Assembly (NCBI RefSeq): GCF_036030735.1
Contig: NZ_CP107928.1
Location: 3,038,001-3,102,000, forward strand
Direction: 5' to 3'
From: Streptomyces sp. NBC_00425
GTDB lineage: Bacteria > Actinomycetota > Actinomycetes > Streptomycetales > Streptomycetaceae
Length of the DNA stretch: 64,000 nt
A program made the position numbers and the translations under genes. Below the pieces are notes generated by a model that was given only the letters and a program-made list of their open reading frames with translations, searched no databases and was not told where the DNA came from. Below, in pieces: positions 38,260 through 41,619 of this stretch (positions are counted from its first letter, which is position 1; each line of letters starts with the position of its first letter).

Positions 38260-38376
38260 TCGCTTGACGCAAACAACGACAATGGGTTGCATACGTTCTG
38301 TGATCGTGCACCCTGCTCCAACCTGTTGTTCACTCAAGCCCGCGAGGACACCGTCGAAGGCAGGGAGCGCCGCGCC

Positions 38377-40002
38377 GTGGACCCGGTGATCATCGTCGGA
38401 GCGGGGCCGGTGGGGCTCACGCTCGCCCTGGCGCTGGCGCGCCAGCAGGTGCCGTCCGTGGTCCTCGACGAGGGCCCCGGCAAGGACGAGCACCGGCTCG
38501 CGCGCACCGTGGTGCTGCGCGAGGACACCGCCGCCCTCCTGGAGCGGCTGACCGGAGTGTCCCTCGCCGACGCCGGGGTGCACTGGTCCGGATGGCGGTC
38601 GATGCGGCGCAAGCAGGTGACGCAGGAGATCGCGTTCGACGACGACGCCGAGCCCGCGCCGCTGCACATCGCCCAGCATGTGCTGACCGGGGCGCTGCGC
38701 GCGGCCCTCGCCGGCGAGCGGCTGGCGAAGATCGCGGTGGACAGCCGCCTGGACACCATCGAACAGGAGTCCACCGGGGTCACCGCCCACACTCGCGGCC
38801 CGCAGGGCACCTGGTGGCGCGGCAGCTATCTGATCGGCTGCGACGGCCCCCGCTCCACGGTCCGCAAACTCCTCGACATCCGCTTCCCGGGCCGTACGGC
38901 GGTGGAGCGACACGCCGTGGCCGCACTGCGTGCGGAACTTCCCTGGGACGGCGAGGCGTTGCTTCATCGAACCCCGCCGTGGCGAGCCTCCGGTCCCCCG
39001 GCCGCGGAGGTCACGGGCCGCCCGCTGCCGGACGGCGTCTGGCGGCTCGACTGGCTGTTGCCGCCCGGCAAGGACCTGGTCACGCCCGAGGTCCTCGTGG
39101 CGCGTGTCCGCGAGACCCTGGCGGGCTGGAGCGGCGGCTCGACGCCTCCCTACGAGCTGCTCGACACCGGCGTGCACACCGTGCACCACCGGCTGGCCCG
39201 CCGCTGGCGCGTGGGCCGGGTCTTCCTCGCGGGGGACGCCGCCCACCTGCTGGGCACGCTCGGCACCCAAGGCCTGGACGAGGGGCTTCGGGACGCCGAC
39301 AACCTCGCCTGGAAGCTGGCCCTGGCCTGGCACCACGGGACGCACGAGGCGCTGCTCGACAGTTACCAGGCCGAGCGCCGCGCGGTCGTCGCCGCCCGGC
39401 TGCGGGCCGCCGACCAGGCGCTCCCCCTGCTGCGCGGCGGCGGGGGCATCAGGGCGTACGTCCCCGGCGCGGCCCGCGGCCACGACGTGCTGCTCACCGA
39501 CGGCCACCTGGGACGCGGCCCGCTGGGCGCGCCGGGATCGTACGCCGGCTCCCCGCTCGCGCCCCGGCACCTGGAGGCGGAGACACCGGTGGACACACCC
39601 CCGGGGGCGCCCGTCGAGGACGTCCGGGTGACCGCGGAGGACGGCTCGTTCGTCCGGCTCCGGGACCGGCTCGGCCGGGGCGCTCTGCTCGTGCTGCTGA
39701 TCGCACCGGGCACCGGTGTGTGGGAGCGCCGGCACTGGGTCGGCGCCGGCATCATGCCCCGGCTGGCCGCAGCGGTGACGGCCCTGCCGTGCCCCGCCGA
39801 ACTGCTGGTGGCCGAGAGCTATCCGGGCGCGGCCGCCCATACGGTCCTGCTGATCCGTCCGGACGGGCATCTCGTCACCGCGCTCAACGGGGTGCGCGCG
39901 GCCGACCTGTACGCCGCGGCGGAGGCAGCCGTGGGCGGTCCGCCGCAGACCGCCGAGGAACCCTCAGCGGCGGGAGCGACGGCAGGCTCCGCGGCGAAGT
40001 GA
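38377..40002 (+). CDS. FAD-dependent aromatic-ring hydroxylase-like monooxygenase
   Basis: 541 aa. Rossmann FAD site V-I-I-V-G-A-G-P-V-G (residues 4-13), a mid-protein I-G-C-D-G-P-R-S-x-V-R motif (DG motif) and the second FAD motif L-A-G-D-A-A-H with L-G-T-Q-G-L-D-E-G-L-R-D-A-D-N-L-A-W-K. These define class A flavoprotein monooxygenases of the PheA/MhpA/tetracycline hydroxylase kind. The C-terminal region (about 420-515) would be the thioredoxin-like phenol hydroxylase domain. The GTG at 38377 follows GGGAG. Substrate unknown; no biosynthetic genes are adjacent, so a catabolic or detoxifying role is as likely as a biosynthetic one. Confidence 0.85.
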   Translation: MDPVIIVGAGPVGLTLALALARQQVPSVVLDEGPGKDEHRLARTVVLREDTAALLERLTGVSLADAGVHWSGWRSMRRKQVTQEIAFDDDAEPAPLHIAQHVLTGALRAALAGERLAKIAVDSRLDTIEQESTGVTAHTRGPQGTWWRGSYLIGCDGPRSTVRKLLDIRFPGRTAVERHAVAALRAELPWDGEALLHRTPPWRASGPPAAEVTGRPLPDGVWRLDWLLPPGKDLVTPEVLVARVRETLAGWSGGSTPPYELLDTGVHTVHHRLARRWRVGRVFLAGDAAHLLGTLGTQGLDEGLRDADNLAWKLALAWHHGTHEALLDSYQAERRAVVAARLRAADQALPLLRGGGGIRAYVPGAARGHDVLLTDGHLGRGPLGAPGSYAGSPLAPRHLEAETPVDTPPGAPVEDVRVTAEDGSFVRLRDRLGRGALLVLLIAPGTGVWERRHWVGAGIMPRLAAAVTALPCPAELLVAESYPGAAAHTVLLIRPDGHLVTALNGVRAADLYAAAEAAVGGPPQTAEEPSAAGATAGSAAK

Positions 40003-40047
40003 CACCGGGCTTCCGCGCGTGGAAAGGATGACGGCGGACTCGCCCCC

Positions 40048-40093
40048 GTCGTGCCTCTGTCGCGGCGCGGCCGCGCCGCGACAGAGGCACGAC
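40048..40093. terminator. 46-bp perfect palindrome, probable strong terminator
   Basis: A 23-bp arm (40048-40070) is immediately followed by its exact reverse complement (40071-40093), so there is no spacer. It lies 45 bp past the monooxygenase stop. Beyond acting as a terminator, a perfect palindrome this long can form a cruciform. Confidence 0.75.
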
Positions 40094-40446
40094 AGCGGCT
40101 ACGCGGCGGCGGCGGTTCGCGCCATGCCGTGGCCCAGCGGCGTGAGAGCCGGAGCTTCGCGGCGTGACCTCGGCCACGCGGGCGAGCTCGGGCGAGTGAC
40201 GGAGGGGACCGGGCGGCGCGGCGTCGTGCGGCTGTGGACCCTGGTGGAGAGTCGGGGCCGGGACGACGGCGGTCGTGGCGCGGAGCAGCACATCACTGCT
40301 CGGGCTGGTGCGAGGCGCGCGCCAGACCCCCGTGCCCCTGCGGCAGGCCGGGCGGCGTGACGGCCCCGCCCGCACTGTCGTCACCGTGCGGTCCACAGGG
40401 TGACGGTGAGTTGACCGCGCTGCACCGGCATGCTGTACTCCGGATC
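40094..40446. other. Non-coding stretch before the leader peptide
   Basis: 353 bp between the long palindrome and the Cys-rich leader ORF. No protein-like frame is seen. It should contain the promoter of the leader/cysteine dioxygenase/rhodanese transcript. I recognise no repeat or operator. Confidence 0.5.
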
Positions 40447-40533
40447 GTGACCGACACCGATGTGCGCCTGTGGCGGAGGGTCCATATGGACCTCGTCCGC
40501 TATGCGGGCTGCGTGTGTCGTCCGTCCTGCTGA
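40447..40533 (+). CDS. Putative regulatory leader peptide ending in Cys-rich sequence
   Basis: 28 codons from a GTG at 40447 to TGA at 40531-40533. The peptide has the pattern of actinobacterial leader peptides: an Arg-rich middle (R-L-W-R-R-V-H-M-D-L-V-R) followed by cysteines, with the last seven residues C-V-C-R-P-S-C. It lies 91 bp upstream of the cysteine dioxygenase start on the same strand. Peptides of this kind often precede sulfur-metabolism genes and are thought to gauge charged tRNA-Cys by ribosome stalling. A short stem (40575-40580 with 40583-40588) is present downstream in the leader RNA. No strong Shine-Dalgarno is visible. I am fairly confident in the pattern, less in the mechanism. 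Confidence 0.65.
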   Translation: MTDTDVRLWRRVHMDLVRYAGCVCRPSC

Positions 40534-40624
40534 ACTCGCACCCCTTCCCCACGGCGCGCGCCGCCGATGCGCCCCCGCACGTGTGCGGCCCGCGCTCCCC
40601 GCGAACGTTCCCAGGACGGTTTCC

Positions 40625-41197
40625 GTGTCTGTCTCTTCACCCCTCCCTCCTTCGGCCCCCACTCCCTCCGCCTCCGTCGCCCCCTCGTCGCCGGCTTCCG
40701 TCGCCGCGCCGACGCAGGCGGAGCTCCTCGACTTCGTCCGGCGCACCGCCGCGGACTCCGCGCTGATCGCCTCGCTCCCCCTCGATCCGGAGGGCCGCAC
40801 CTGGGCGCGTCTGGAGGGACCGGGCGGCAGCGAGGCCTGGCTGATCGGCTGGCCGCCCGGCACCGGCACCGGCTGGCACGACCACGCGGACTCGGTGGGC
40901 GCGTTCCTGACGGCTCGGGGCACACTCAAGGAGTACTCGCTCGCCGCTCGGCTGCCCACCGACGGCTGGCGGACCCTGGAACTGACCGACGACGTGGACC
41001 GGTCGCGCGCCCTGCCGGCCGGCCGGGGCCGGTCCTTCGGCCGCCACCACGTCCATGAGGTCCTCAACGAGTCCGCCGAGGAACACGCCGTCTCCGTCCA
41101 CGCCTACTACCCGCCGCTGCCCCGCATCCGCCGCTACAGCCGTACCGGCCAGGTGCTGCGGCTGGAGCAGGTCGAGCGTCCGGAGGACTGGCAGTGA
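40625..41197 (+). CDS. Cysteine dioxygenase family protein
   Basis: 190 aa. The cupin fold of type I cysteine dioxygenases, which oxidise L-cysteine to cysteine sulfinate with non-haem iron. The iron ligands are His85 and His87 (G-W-H-D-H) and His144 (H-H-V-H-E-V). The first 30 residues are Ser/Pro/Ala-rich and probably disordered. The GTG at 40625 is supported by AGGAC upstream. Its TGA overlaps the GTG of the rhodanese gene by 4 bp. A Cys-rich leader ORF upstream suggests the expression responds to cysteine supply. Other thiol dioxygenases (e.g. for 3-mercaptopropionate) share these ligands, so the substrate is likely but not certain. Confidence 0.85.
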   Translation: MSVSSPLPPSAPTPSASVAPSSPASVAAPTQAELLDFVRRTAADSALIASLPLDPEGRTWARLEGPGGSEAWLIGWPPGTGTGWHDHADSVGAFLTARGTLKEYSLAARLPTDGWRTLELTDDVDRSRALPAGRGRSFGRHHVHEVLNESAEEHAVSVHAYYPPLPRIRRYSRTGQVLRLEQVERPEDWQ

Positions 41198-41619
41198 GCG
41201 ACGCGAACATCCCGCAGCGACGGCGGGACGACGAACAGCCGACCGGCATCGACGAGTTGCTCGAGCGCGTCCGTGCCCGATACGCGCGCGTGGAGGCCCG
41301 GGAGGCGTTCGAGGCCGCCCGCGCGGGCCAGGCGCTGCTCGTCGACATCCGGTACGCGGCGCTGCGGGAGCGGGACGGGCTGATCCCCGGCGCACTGGTC
41401 GTCGAGCGCAACGAACTGGAGTGGCGTCTCGACCCTCGGGGCAGTCATCGACTCCCCGAAGCCACGAGCCATGACGTACGGGCGATCGTCATCTGCAACG
41501 AGGGGTACGCGTCGAGTCTGGCCGCCGCGTCCCTGCACCAGCTGGGACTGCACCGGGCGACCGATCTCGTCGGCGGCTTCCAGGCCTGGAAAGCGGCGGG
41601 CCTCCCCGTCACGTCGTAG
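41194..41619 (+). CDS. Rhodanese-like sulfurtransferase
   Basis: 141 aa. A single rhodanese domain: L-L-V-D-I-R near residues 48-53, I-P-G-A near 64-67, and the active-site loop starting at Cys101 (V-I-C-N-E-G-Y-A-S-S), closing with G-G-F-Q-A-W. The catalytic cysteine would carry a persulfide. Translation is coupled to the cysteine dioxygenase gene through a GTGA overlap, so the pair probably handles excess cysteine and derived sulfane sulfur together. Confidence 0.88.
   Translation: MSDANIPQRRRDDEQPTGIDELLERVRARYARVEAREAFEAARAGQALLVDIRYAALRERDGLIPGALVVERNELEWRLDPRGSHRLPEATSHDVRAIVICNEGYASSLAAASLHQLGLHRATDLVGGFQAWKAAGLPVTS

Follow-up and report, generated by a model that had tools for sequence, protein, structure and literature searches.

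Leader and operon at the locus

The window, by which we mean the whole 64,000-nucleotide stretch analysed, lies in a Streptomyces genome consisting of one contig of 9.8 Mb. It carries a 28-codon open reading frame (ORF) whose stop codon is separated by 91 nt from the GTG start codon (40625) of a putative cysteine dioxygenase (CDO) type I family gene, and a rhodanese-domain gene follows the latter (Table 1). A rhodanese-like active-site motif was found downstream of CDO in 70 of the 79 named loci that had enough flanking sequence. The solved chains nearest in sequence to the window dioxygenase are 8qfl-8qfr, deposited as cysteine dioxygenase. These chains may correspond to an ergothioneine dioxygenase, although a literature search gave no confirmation. 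An active-site Arg, R62 in the window, was first taken as a guide to the substrate. As this residue differs between orthologues, it gives no substrate call. That the operon destroys cysteine is an uncertain premise about a putative enzyme. Upstream of the leader, positions 38287-40002 encode a protein of the FAD-dependent monooxygenase family (FAD_binding_3; under every NCBIfam cut-off shown). Between this gene and the leader lies a perfect 46-nt palindrome (GTCGTGCCTCTGTCGCGGCGCGG and its reverse complement, 40048-40093), at which a terminator scan made no call. The same genome contains two other CDO-like genes, and the same pattern found no leader in the approximately 0.9 kb fetched for them.

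Table 1. Window coordinates of the features at the leader and the dioxygenase-rhodanese operon
Feature	Position	Strand	Remarks
-35 box TTGACC	40411..40416	+	TTGAC within upstream 50 nt in 168/176 distinct rows
Proposed -10 box TGTACT	40434..40439	+	17 nt past -35, 7 nt ahead of start codon
Leader ORF VTDTDVRLWRRVHMDLVRYAGCVCRPSC, then stop	40447..40533	+	28 codons and stop; ends C-V-C-R-P-S-C
Predicted hairpin within leader ORF	40458..40520	+	MFE; core 40473-40500, arms GCGGA/UCCGC and GGUCC/GGACC
Cys22 codon TGC	40510..40512	+	Cys in 107/112 distinct in-register leaders
Cys24 codon TGT, proposed sensor codon	40516..40518	+	TGT in 112/112 in-register CDO leaders
Anti-SD CCGTCCTG, P1 5' arm, within final leader codons	40522..40529	+	Exact in 142/173 distinct elements
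Cys28 codon TGC, less conserved	40528..40530	+	Cys in 65/71 distinct ORFs
P1b 5' arm GAACTCGC	40532..40539	+	MFE and folds of diverse elements
P2 apical hairpin	40553..40596	+	MFE; sequence variable in relatives
P1b 3' arm GCGA..GTTC	40601..40610	+	MFE and folds of diverse elements
Shine-Dalgarno region CAGGACGG, P1 3' arm	40612..40619	+	In 166/173 distinct elements
Cysteine dioxygenase type I family gene, GTG start (putative)	40625..41197	+	PF05995 (CDO_I), 162 bits
Rhodanese-domain gene	41194..41619	+	PF00581; 4-nt overlap with dioxygenase stop

In high-GC DNA, a 28-codon ORF by itself means little. Concerning the peptide, the leader scored 37.1 bits against the NCBIfam model NF042934, 'putative leader peptide' (cut-off 27), with the whole 19-position model aligning to residues 6-24. 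Against NF042933, the Ms5788A Cys-rich leader, it scored 18.3 bits, below the cut-off of 45, and its end, C-V-C-R-P-S-C, has no run of Cys codons. We collected 110 CDO loci in two sets with some genomes in both, one of 30 relatives and one comprising the best 80 of at least 450 named loci (Streptomyces in 79 of these 80). The leader was upstream of CDO in 109 of the 110. In the one exception (L063), two leader halves lie about 1.9 kb apart (around 517 and 2388), and therefore the leader there is split by an insertion. A profile made from ten leaders matched in 329 of the 391 genomes of the order. Of the 62 genomes lacking the leader, 20 were listed and examined for the gene; distant CDO relatives were all that turned up in 17, and the pieces present in the other 3 were truncated or carried stops. 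Among a further 24 genomes the orthologue was present in 16, each with the leader; in the remaining 8 there was no leader match in 7 and a weak one in G037, where it corresponds to the leader of another CDO type. Over the 27 genomes examined in this way (20 and 7), leader absence went with an absent or broken gene. The sequence-only reading had described a Cys-ended 28-codon ORF (40447-40533) with an actinobacterial leader-peptide pattern 91 bp before a CDO-rhodanese operon, and had stated that absence of the ORF from relatives would refute its proposal; position, family and conservation were all confirmed.

Some individual genomes depart from this arrangement. In G012 (L174, L235) the leader and the Shine-Dalgarno (SD) sequence are about 1.1 Mb from the CDO gene, the rearrangement being within the gene, and the CDO gene forms a fusion with a LacI-like DNA-binding sequence (identified by reading) in front of it. 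In G445 the leader and the SD appear decayed. A second match to the CDO-leader profile was seen in G101, G194, G198, G206, G356 and others.

The pN/pS ratio among 112 distinct in-register leaders was 0.27 over codons 8-24, 0.20 over codons 9-19 and 0.78 over codons 2-7. The low values in the first two segments suggest that selection acts on the leader peptide itself. As the pattern used to collect the rows demands H-x-D-[LFM]-x-[RK], the conservation of H13, D15 and R18 is in part due to row choice, while Cys24 is outside the pattern.

Upstream of the leader, promoter-like boxes follow the pattern TTGACN-17-NNTACT, and the 17-nt spacing was present in 124 of the 133 rows having both boxes. TACT was found 7 nt ahead of the aligned start in 130 of 176 distinct rows, and the aligned start codon was GTG or ATG in 166 of 176. 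A strict sigma-70 scan of 39950-40700 gave no promoter, since the proposed -10 box has no A at position 2. As the boxes end 7 nt before the start codon, this codon would stand at or next to +1, and the leader ORF is probably leaderless. Terminator-like sites, a feature of classical transcription attenuators, numbered 0 in a scan of 39950-40700, and an Rfam search of 40300-40700 returned no family at E<=1.

Predicted RNA structure and the modelled effect of a ribosome

The sequence CCGTCCTG, which lies in the final leader codons, is the exact complement of CAGGACGG, the SD region of the dioxygenase gene. We compared 173 of 189 elements, after 7 without a recognisable SD or start and 9 duplicates had been dropped. 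For single-sequence folds, 60 diverse elements were picked for dissimilarity out of 141 with spacers of 58-92 nt. In 59 of the 60 (the exception being L042) the SD was paired with the leader end, by which we mean that 5 or more of the final 8 SD bases had partners among the first 15 bases, which run from codon 25 to the stop and beyond. In these 59 elements the predicted structure masks the downstream SD and shares sequence with the Cys codons, as in leaderless Cys attenuators. The pairing of this stem (P1) is continued by P1b, between bases that follow the stop and GCGA ahead of the SD, and the structure is closed by the apical hairpin P2. The matching TGATC at the stop codon was seen in 11 of the 13 elements whose P1b 3' side is CGATC and in 2 of the remaining 47; this co-occurrence suggests that the P1b pairing has been kept through a sequence change. 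Covariation in P1 was minimal, with a full compensatory change in one row, as expected for arms that are an SD and a codon run. RNAalifold on a MAFFT alignment gave 3 pairs only and did not recover the stem, probably because P2 is not alignable by sequence, and single-sequence folds were used instead. The interior region folded better than dinucleotide shuffles (mean z -2.52, 170 distinct sequences), and the fold of the window RNA had an energy of -90.7 kcal/mol (z -3.8). A small local hairpin that includes the SD and the start codon (40612-40634) is possible in the window when the long-range stem is open.

We then considered the state of the SD with and without a ribosome on the leader. Folds were calculated for 165 of the 173 elements, those with no A before GGACGG or with a long spacer being excluded, in the free RNA and with a ribosome at 13 or 14 A-site positions. 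The footprint was assumed to cover 12 nt behind and 15 nt ahead of the first P-site base. In the free RNA, AGGA of the SD was unpaired with a mean of 0.03 and a maximum of 0.33 in the folding model, and the mean cost of opening it was 8.5 kcal/mol. With a ribosome, the mean cost was 6.75 kcal/mol at A-site codon 22, 4.2 at codon 23, 3.35 at codon 24 and 2.4-2.6 from codon 25 onward. At codon 24 the cost was below that of the free RNA in 158 of the 165 rows, and below that at codon 22 in 154. In these models the fall in opening cost thus coincides, on average, with Cys24. In the window's own RNA, a ribosome at codon 18 was enough to bring the cost to about 3.2, which means that the step at codons 23-24 is an average across relatives. 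The opened SD and the start codon still formed a weak local hairpin; with the ribosome at codon 24, AGGA was unpaired at 0.27, and above 0.5 in just 3 of the 165 rows. According to the model, a ribosome at Cys24, Cys28 or the stop codon favours an open SD and its release a closed one, so that the anatomy predicts ordinary polarity, in which cysteine shortage is the ON state.

An invariant UGU codon in related leaders

The codon of Cys24 was TGT in all 138 distinct CDO leaders when a longer key was used. We also examined the wider leader family in 81 loci, 40 of which were hand-picked, mostly one per genome outside Streptomyces, with a pattern that demands Cys at +11 and leaves its codon free. 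The Cys 11 residues past the motif H/A was encoded by TGT in 80 of the 80 family leaders examined (L001-L012, L238-L305). This count is made up of 75 of 75 in a first scan and 5 more, all TGT, on a recheck without position limit (two leaders in L242, L264, L265 and a second leader in L008). The family match in L008 has Ser (AGC) at +11, and L289 and L306 gave no match. The leaders counted include 11 of this genome's 12 matches and come from many genera of the class.

At the other positions after the H, 92 of the 112 Cys codons of the family leaders were TGC (+4, 36/39; +9, 29/36; +10, 5/5; +12, 6/10), and in the CDO leaders TGC outnumbered TGT by 126 to 7 at Cys22 and by 109 to 10 at Cys28. 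Among the Cys codons of neighbouring genes, TGT made up 23 of 139 in the window and 14 of 93 in the class loci. A simple rule of UGC elsewhere does not hold, however, as the unconserved Cys5 of the CDO leaders was TGT in 21 and TGC in 9. Other conserved residues differ synonymously (Asp, GAC/GAT 62/12; Arg at +5, at least 5 codons). As the flanking bases vary, the constraint appears to fall on the codon. Should one tRNA-Cys(GCA) read both Cys codons, UGU would be the codon decoded by wobble. Searches of the open-licence PMC literature revealed no description of an invariant UGU or of a Cys leader ahead of CDO.

Family leaders in the genome of the window precede, by Pfam, genes for a PLP-dependent synthase, a sulfite reductase, a two-domain rhodanese, NMT1-type and family-5 binding proteins, a flavin reductase, TauD and two luciferase-like monooxygenases. 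The leaders of four of these genes (PLP synthase, sulfite reductase, rhodanese and flavin reductase) displayed no comparable SD-opening step at their TGT codon, which suggests that family members may differ in output.

Five Streptomyces genomes that lack an intact orthologue (G037, G047, G123, G147 and G204; loci L181, L182, L224, L227, L228, L231-L234 and L237) have a second CDO type, about 40% identical, directly preceded by a leader of its own, an example being MPTDQRFFARHHVDLVRVASALCPCGRP in G047. These five genomes were selected because the leader had been seen. Four other genomes lacking the orthologue (G102, G215, G220 and G247) have yet another CDO type, with no leader by the same pattern. 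Sulfur-type genes (SsuA-family, taurine/sulfonate-type ABC, TauD or TauE) were near the second-type CDO in four of the five: an SsuA-family protein above its cut-off in G047, ABC genes whose best NCBIfam names, below cut-off, include taurine, sulfonate and related importers in G037, G047 and G147, and genes with a TauD and a TauE domain in G037 and G204, respectively. The CDO of G204 is followed, like that of the window, by a rhodanese-like reading frame, and it has HGH instead of HDH.

Published expression data concern SCO5772 of S. coelicolor, named a putative cysteine dioxygenase in the accessible text of one paper (PMC3087709). We presume from the general presence of the leader that SCO5772 carries it. 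According to the available part of another report (PMC4991794), SCO5772 was 8.0-fold up under H2O2, among 28 induced genes, together with ssuABC, cysNDCHI, cysA and cysM. The same portion states that the induction was at the mRNA level and that no gene was up-regulated by H2O2 in an hbpS-senS-senR mutant (PMC4991794).

Proposed attenuation model and predicted role of the operon

The leader, the promoter-like boxes, the complementarity, the conservation and the UGU codon can be read in the sequence, and the folding model points to an easier opening of the SD under a stalled ribosome. We consider it probable that the leader is a leaderless, Cys-sensing translational attenuator of ordinary polarity that controls the putative dioxygenase operon. 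We infer a leaderless start, ribosome stalling, its direction and the roles of peptide and enzyme as follows. The 5' end of the mRNA would be at or near the leader GTG. With ample Cys-tRNA, the ribosome would complete the leader and depart, codons 26-28 would pair with the SD, and translation would be off, the closed state consisting of P1 lengthened by P1b and P2. With scarce Cys-tRNA, the ribosome would pause with UGU codon 24 (or Cys28) in the A site, masking the anti-SD and leaving the SD free. The dioxygenase would then be made, and probably the rhodanese too via the 4-nt overlap. The conserved RRxHxDLxR, 6 to 14 residues before Cys24, probably aids the stall. The dioxygenase would liberate thiol sulfur for reuse.

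This leader is of a known kind, and what is unusual is its target, a CDO operon, and the invariant UGU. The fit of residues 6-24 to the whole of NF042934 is its likeness to that family, whose model description mentions neither target, SD pairing nor codon; here there are a CDO-rhodanese target and an explicit SD lock. Ms5788A-type polycysteine leaderless ORFs of mycobacteria are reportedly translational attenuators (Canestrari et al. 2020). Papers citing Canestrari et al. describe, in the passages available, mycobacterial leaders that answer cysteine availability by attenuation, one of them calling it translational. The window leader resembles this type as a short, probably leaderless ORF with Cys near its end and predicted translational attenuation, and differs in having no Cys run, in scoring below the NF042933 cut-off and in a target that is not a cysteine synthesis gene. 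Seliverstov et al. 2005 predicted Cys leaders before cys operons in Mycobacterium, P. acnes and B. longum, which are likewise short ORFs with Cys codons close to the stop and no terminator; the excerpts of that paper contain no CDO case, unlike the present locus (PMC1262725). The uORFC-8-2 leader before cysS in Rhodobacterales, as described in the accessible portion of its report (PMC8632094), shares ribosome-mediated Cys sensing, but has an intrinsic terminator and UGC-dominated Cys codons, in contrast to the SD lock and invariant UGU found here.

The RNA anatomy alone does not separate Cys-tRNA shortage from Cys-induced arrest as what holds the ribosome. Shortage is favoured on three counts: leaders of the same family and spacing stand before assimilation and organosulfur-type genes, the mycobacterial relatives are described as answering cysteine availability by attenuation, and SCO5772 is induced with cysteine-biosynthesis genes. 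For comparison, TnaC senses free Trp by nascent-chain arrest at the stop codon, and it is the leader of an amino-acid catabolic operon, as the window leader putatively is. If high cysteine stalled the ribosome in a TnaC-like manner near Cys24 to the stop, the SD would be freed and cysteine breakdown turned on. The identical RNA anatomy would suffice for such an arrest, the peptide is conserved far beyond its Cys codons, and a catabolic role would fit. We nevertheless regard this arrest as unlikely, as cysteine should not induce the assimilation genes that the motif precedes with the same Cys spacing, and as the last residue and the length of the peptide vary (Cys28 in 65/71, other ends), unlike in stop-codon arrest. 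The rise of SCO5772 with cysteine biosynthesis genes, as given in the part of the report available, also argues against it (PMC4991794).

Taking into account that the H2O2 induction was at the mRNA level and absent in the hbpS-senS-senR mutant, at least in the part of the report available (PMC4991794), control may be exerted at the promoter, for instance by the HbpS-SenS-SenR redox system, with the leader minor or constitutive. The promoter-like boxes are indeed conserved. Promoter control would, however, explain neither why UGU is invariant nor the constraint on the peptide, the anti-SD or the joint loss of leader and gene, and we judge it quite improbable as the main explanation. The strong conservation of the peptide would also agree with a functional small protein whose ORF pairs with the SD incidentally. 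This is very hard to reconcile with an anti-SD exact in 142 of 173 elements and a stem in 59 of 60 diverse elements, with a motif common to leaders of unrelated sulfur genes, and with a leader that stays directly upstream of the gene in the loci examined.

The sequence-only reading had proposed a cysteine switch with reversed logic, in which ribosome release opens the dioxygenase ribosome site. What stands of this is the probable cysteine switch as such, in the form of a conserved Cys leader of actinobacterial type that accompanies the operon and is able to hide the dioxygenase SD. The reversed logic, for which only the gene name speaks, is scarcely credible, since in the folding models the RNA is closed when free (AGGA unpaired 0.03 on average and 0.33 at most in 165 rows), at no ribosome position tried is the free state the open one, and the opening cost drops on average with the ribosome at about codon 23 to the stop, so that release would close the site. 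The alignment suggested along with it revealed conserved Cys codons (Cys22 in 107/112, Cys24 in 112/112) and a P1 almost without covariation.

We return to ordinary polarity, with expression under cysteine shortage. Since leaders of this family also stand before genes of sulfur assimilation and of organosulfur type, the operon is most likely part of a sulfur-limitation response. If the enzyme truly destroys cysteine, its synthesis under cysteine shortage would be paradoxical; we presume instead that leader-controlled CDO enzymes free sulfur from a thiol for reuse. A wider proposal, which we hold to be evenly balanced between right and wrong, is that sulfur leaders of Actinomycetes have a dedicated UGU (never UGC in the leaders examined) 11 codons past the H/A of an RRx[HA]xDLxR-type motif, and that the nascent peptide and the wobble-read codon act as a joint Cys-tRNA sensor. 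The CDO-rhodanese operon would be one output of this sensor, its thiol dioxygenase being a sulfur-starvation gene that mobilises thiol sulfur and not a means of cysteine disposal.

A supposedly catabolic enzyme family under an apparent cysteine-starvation switch predicts a sulfur-scavenging role, and makes the question of the dioxygenase substrate testable. The invariant UGU would provide a specific and cheap probe of the way in which the sensitivity of an amino-acid attenuator depends on codon choice and nascent peptide, in a large bacterial class that includes many antibiotic producers.
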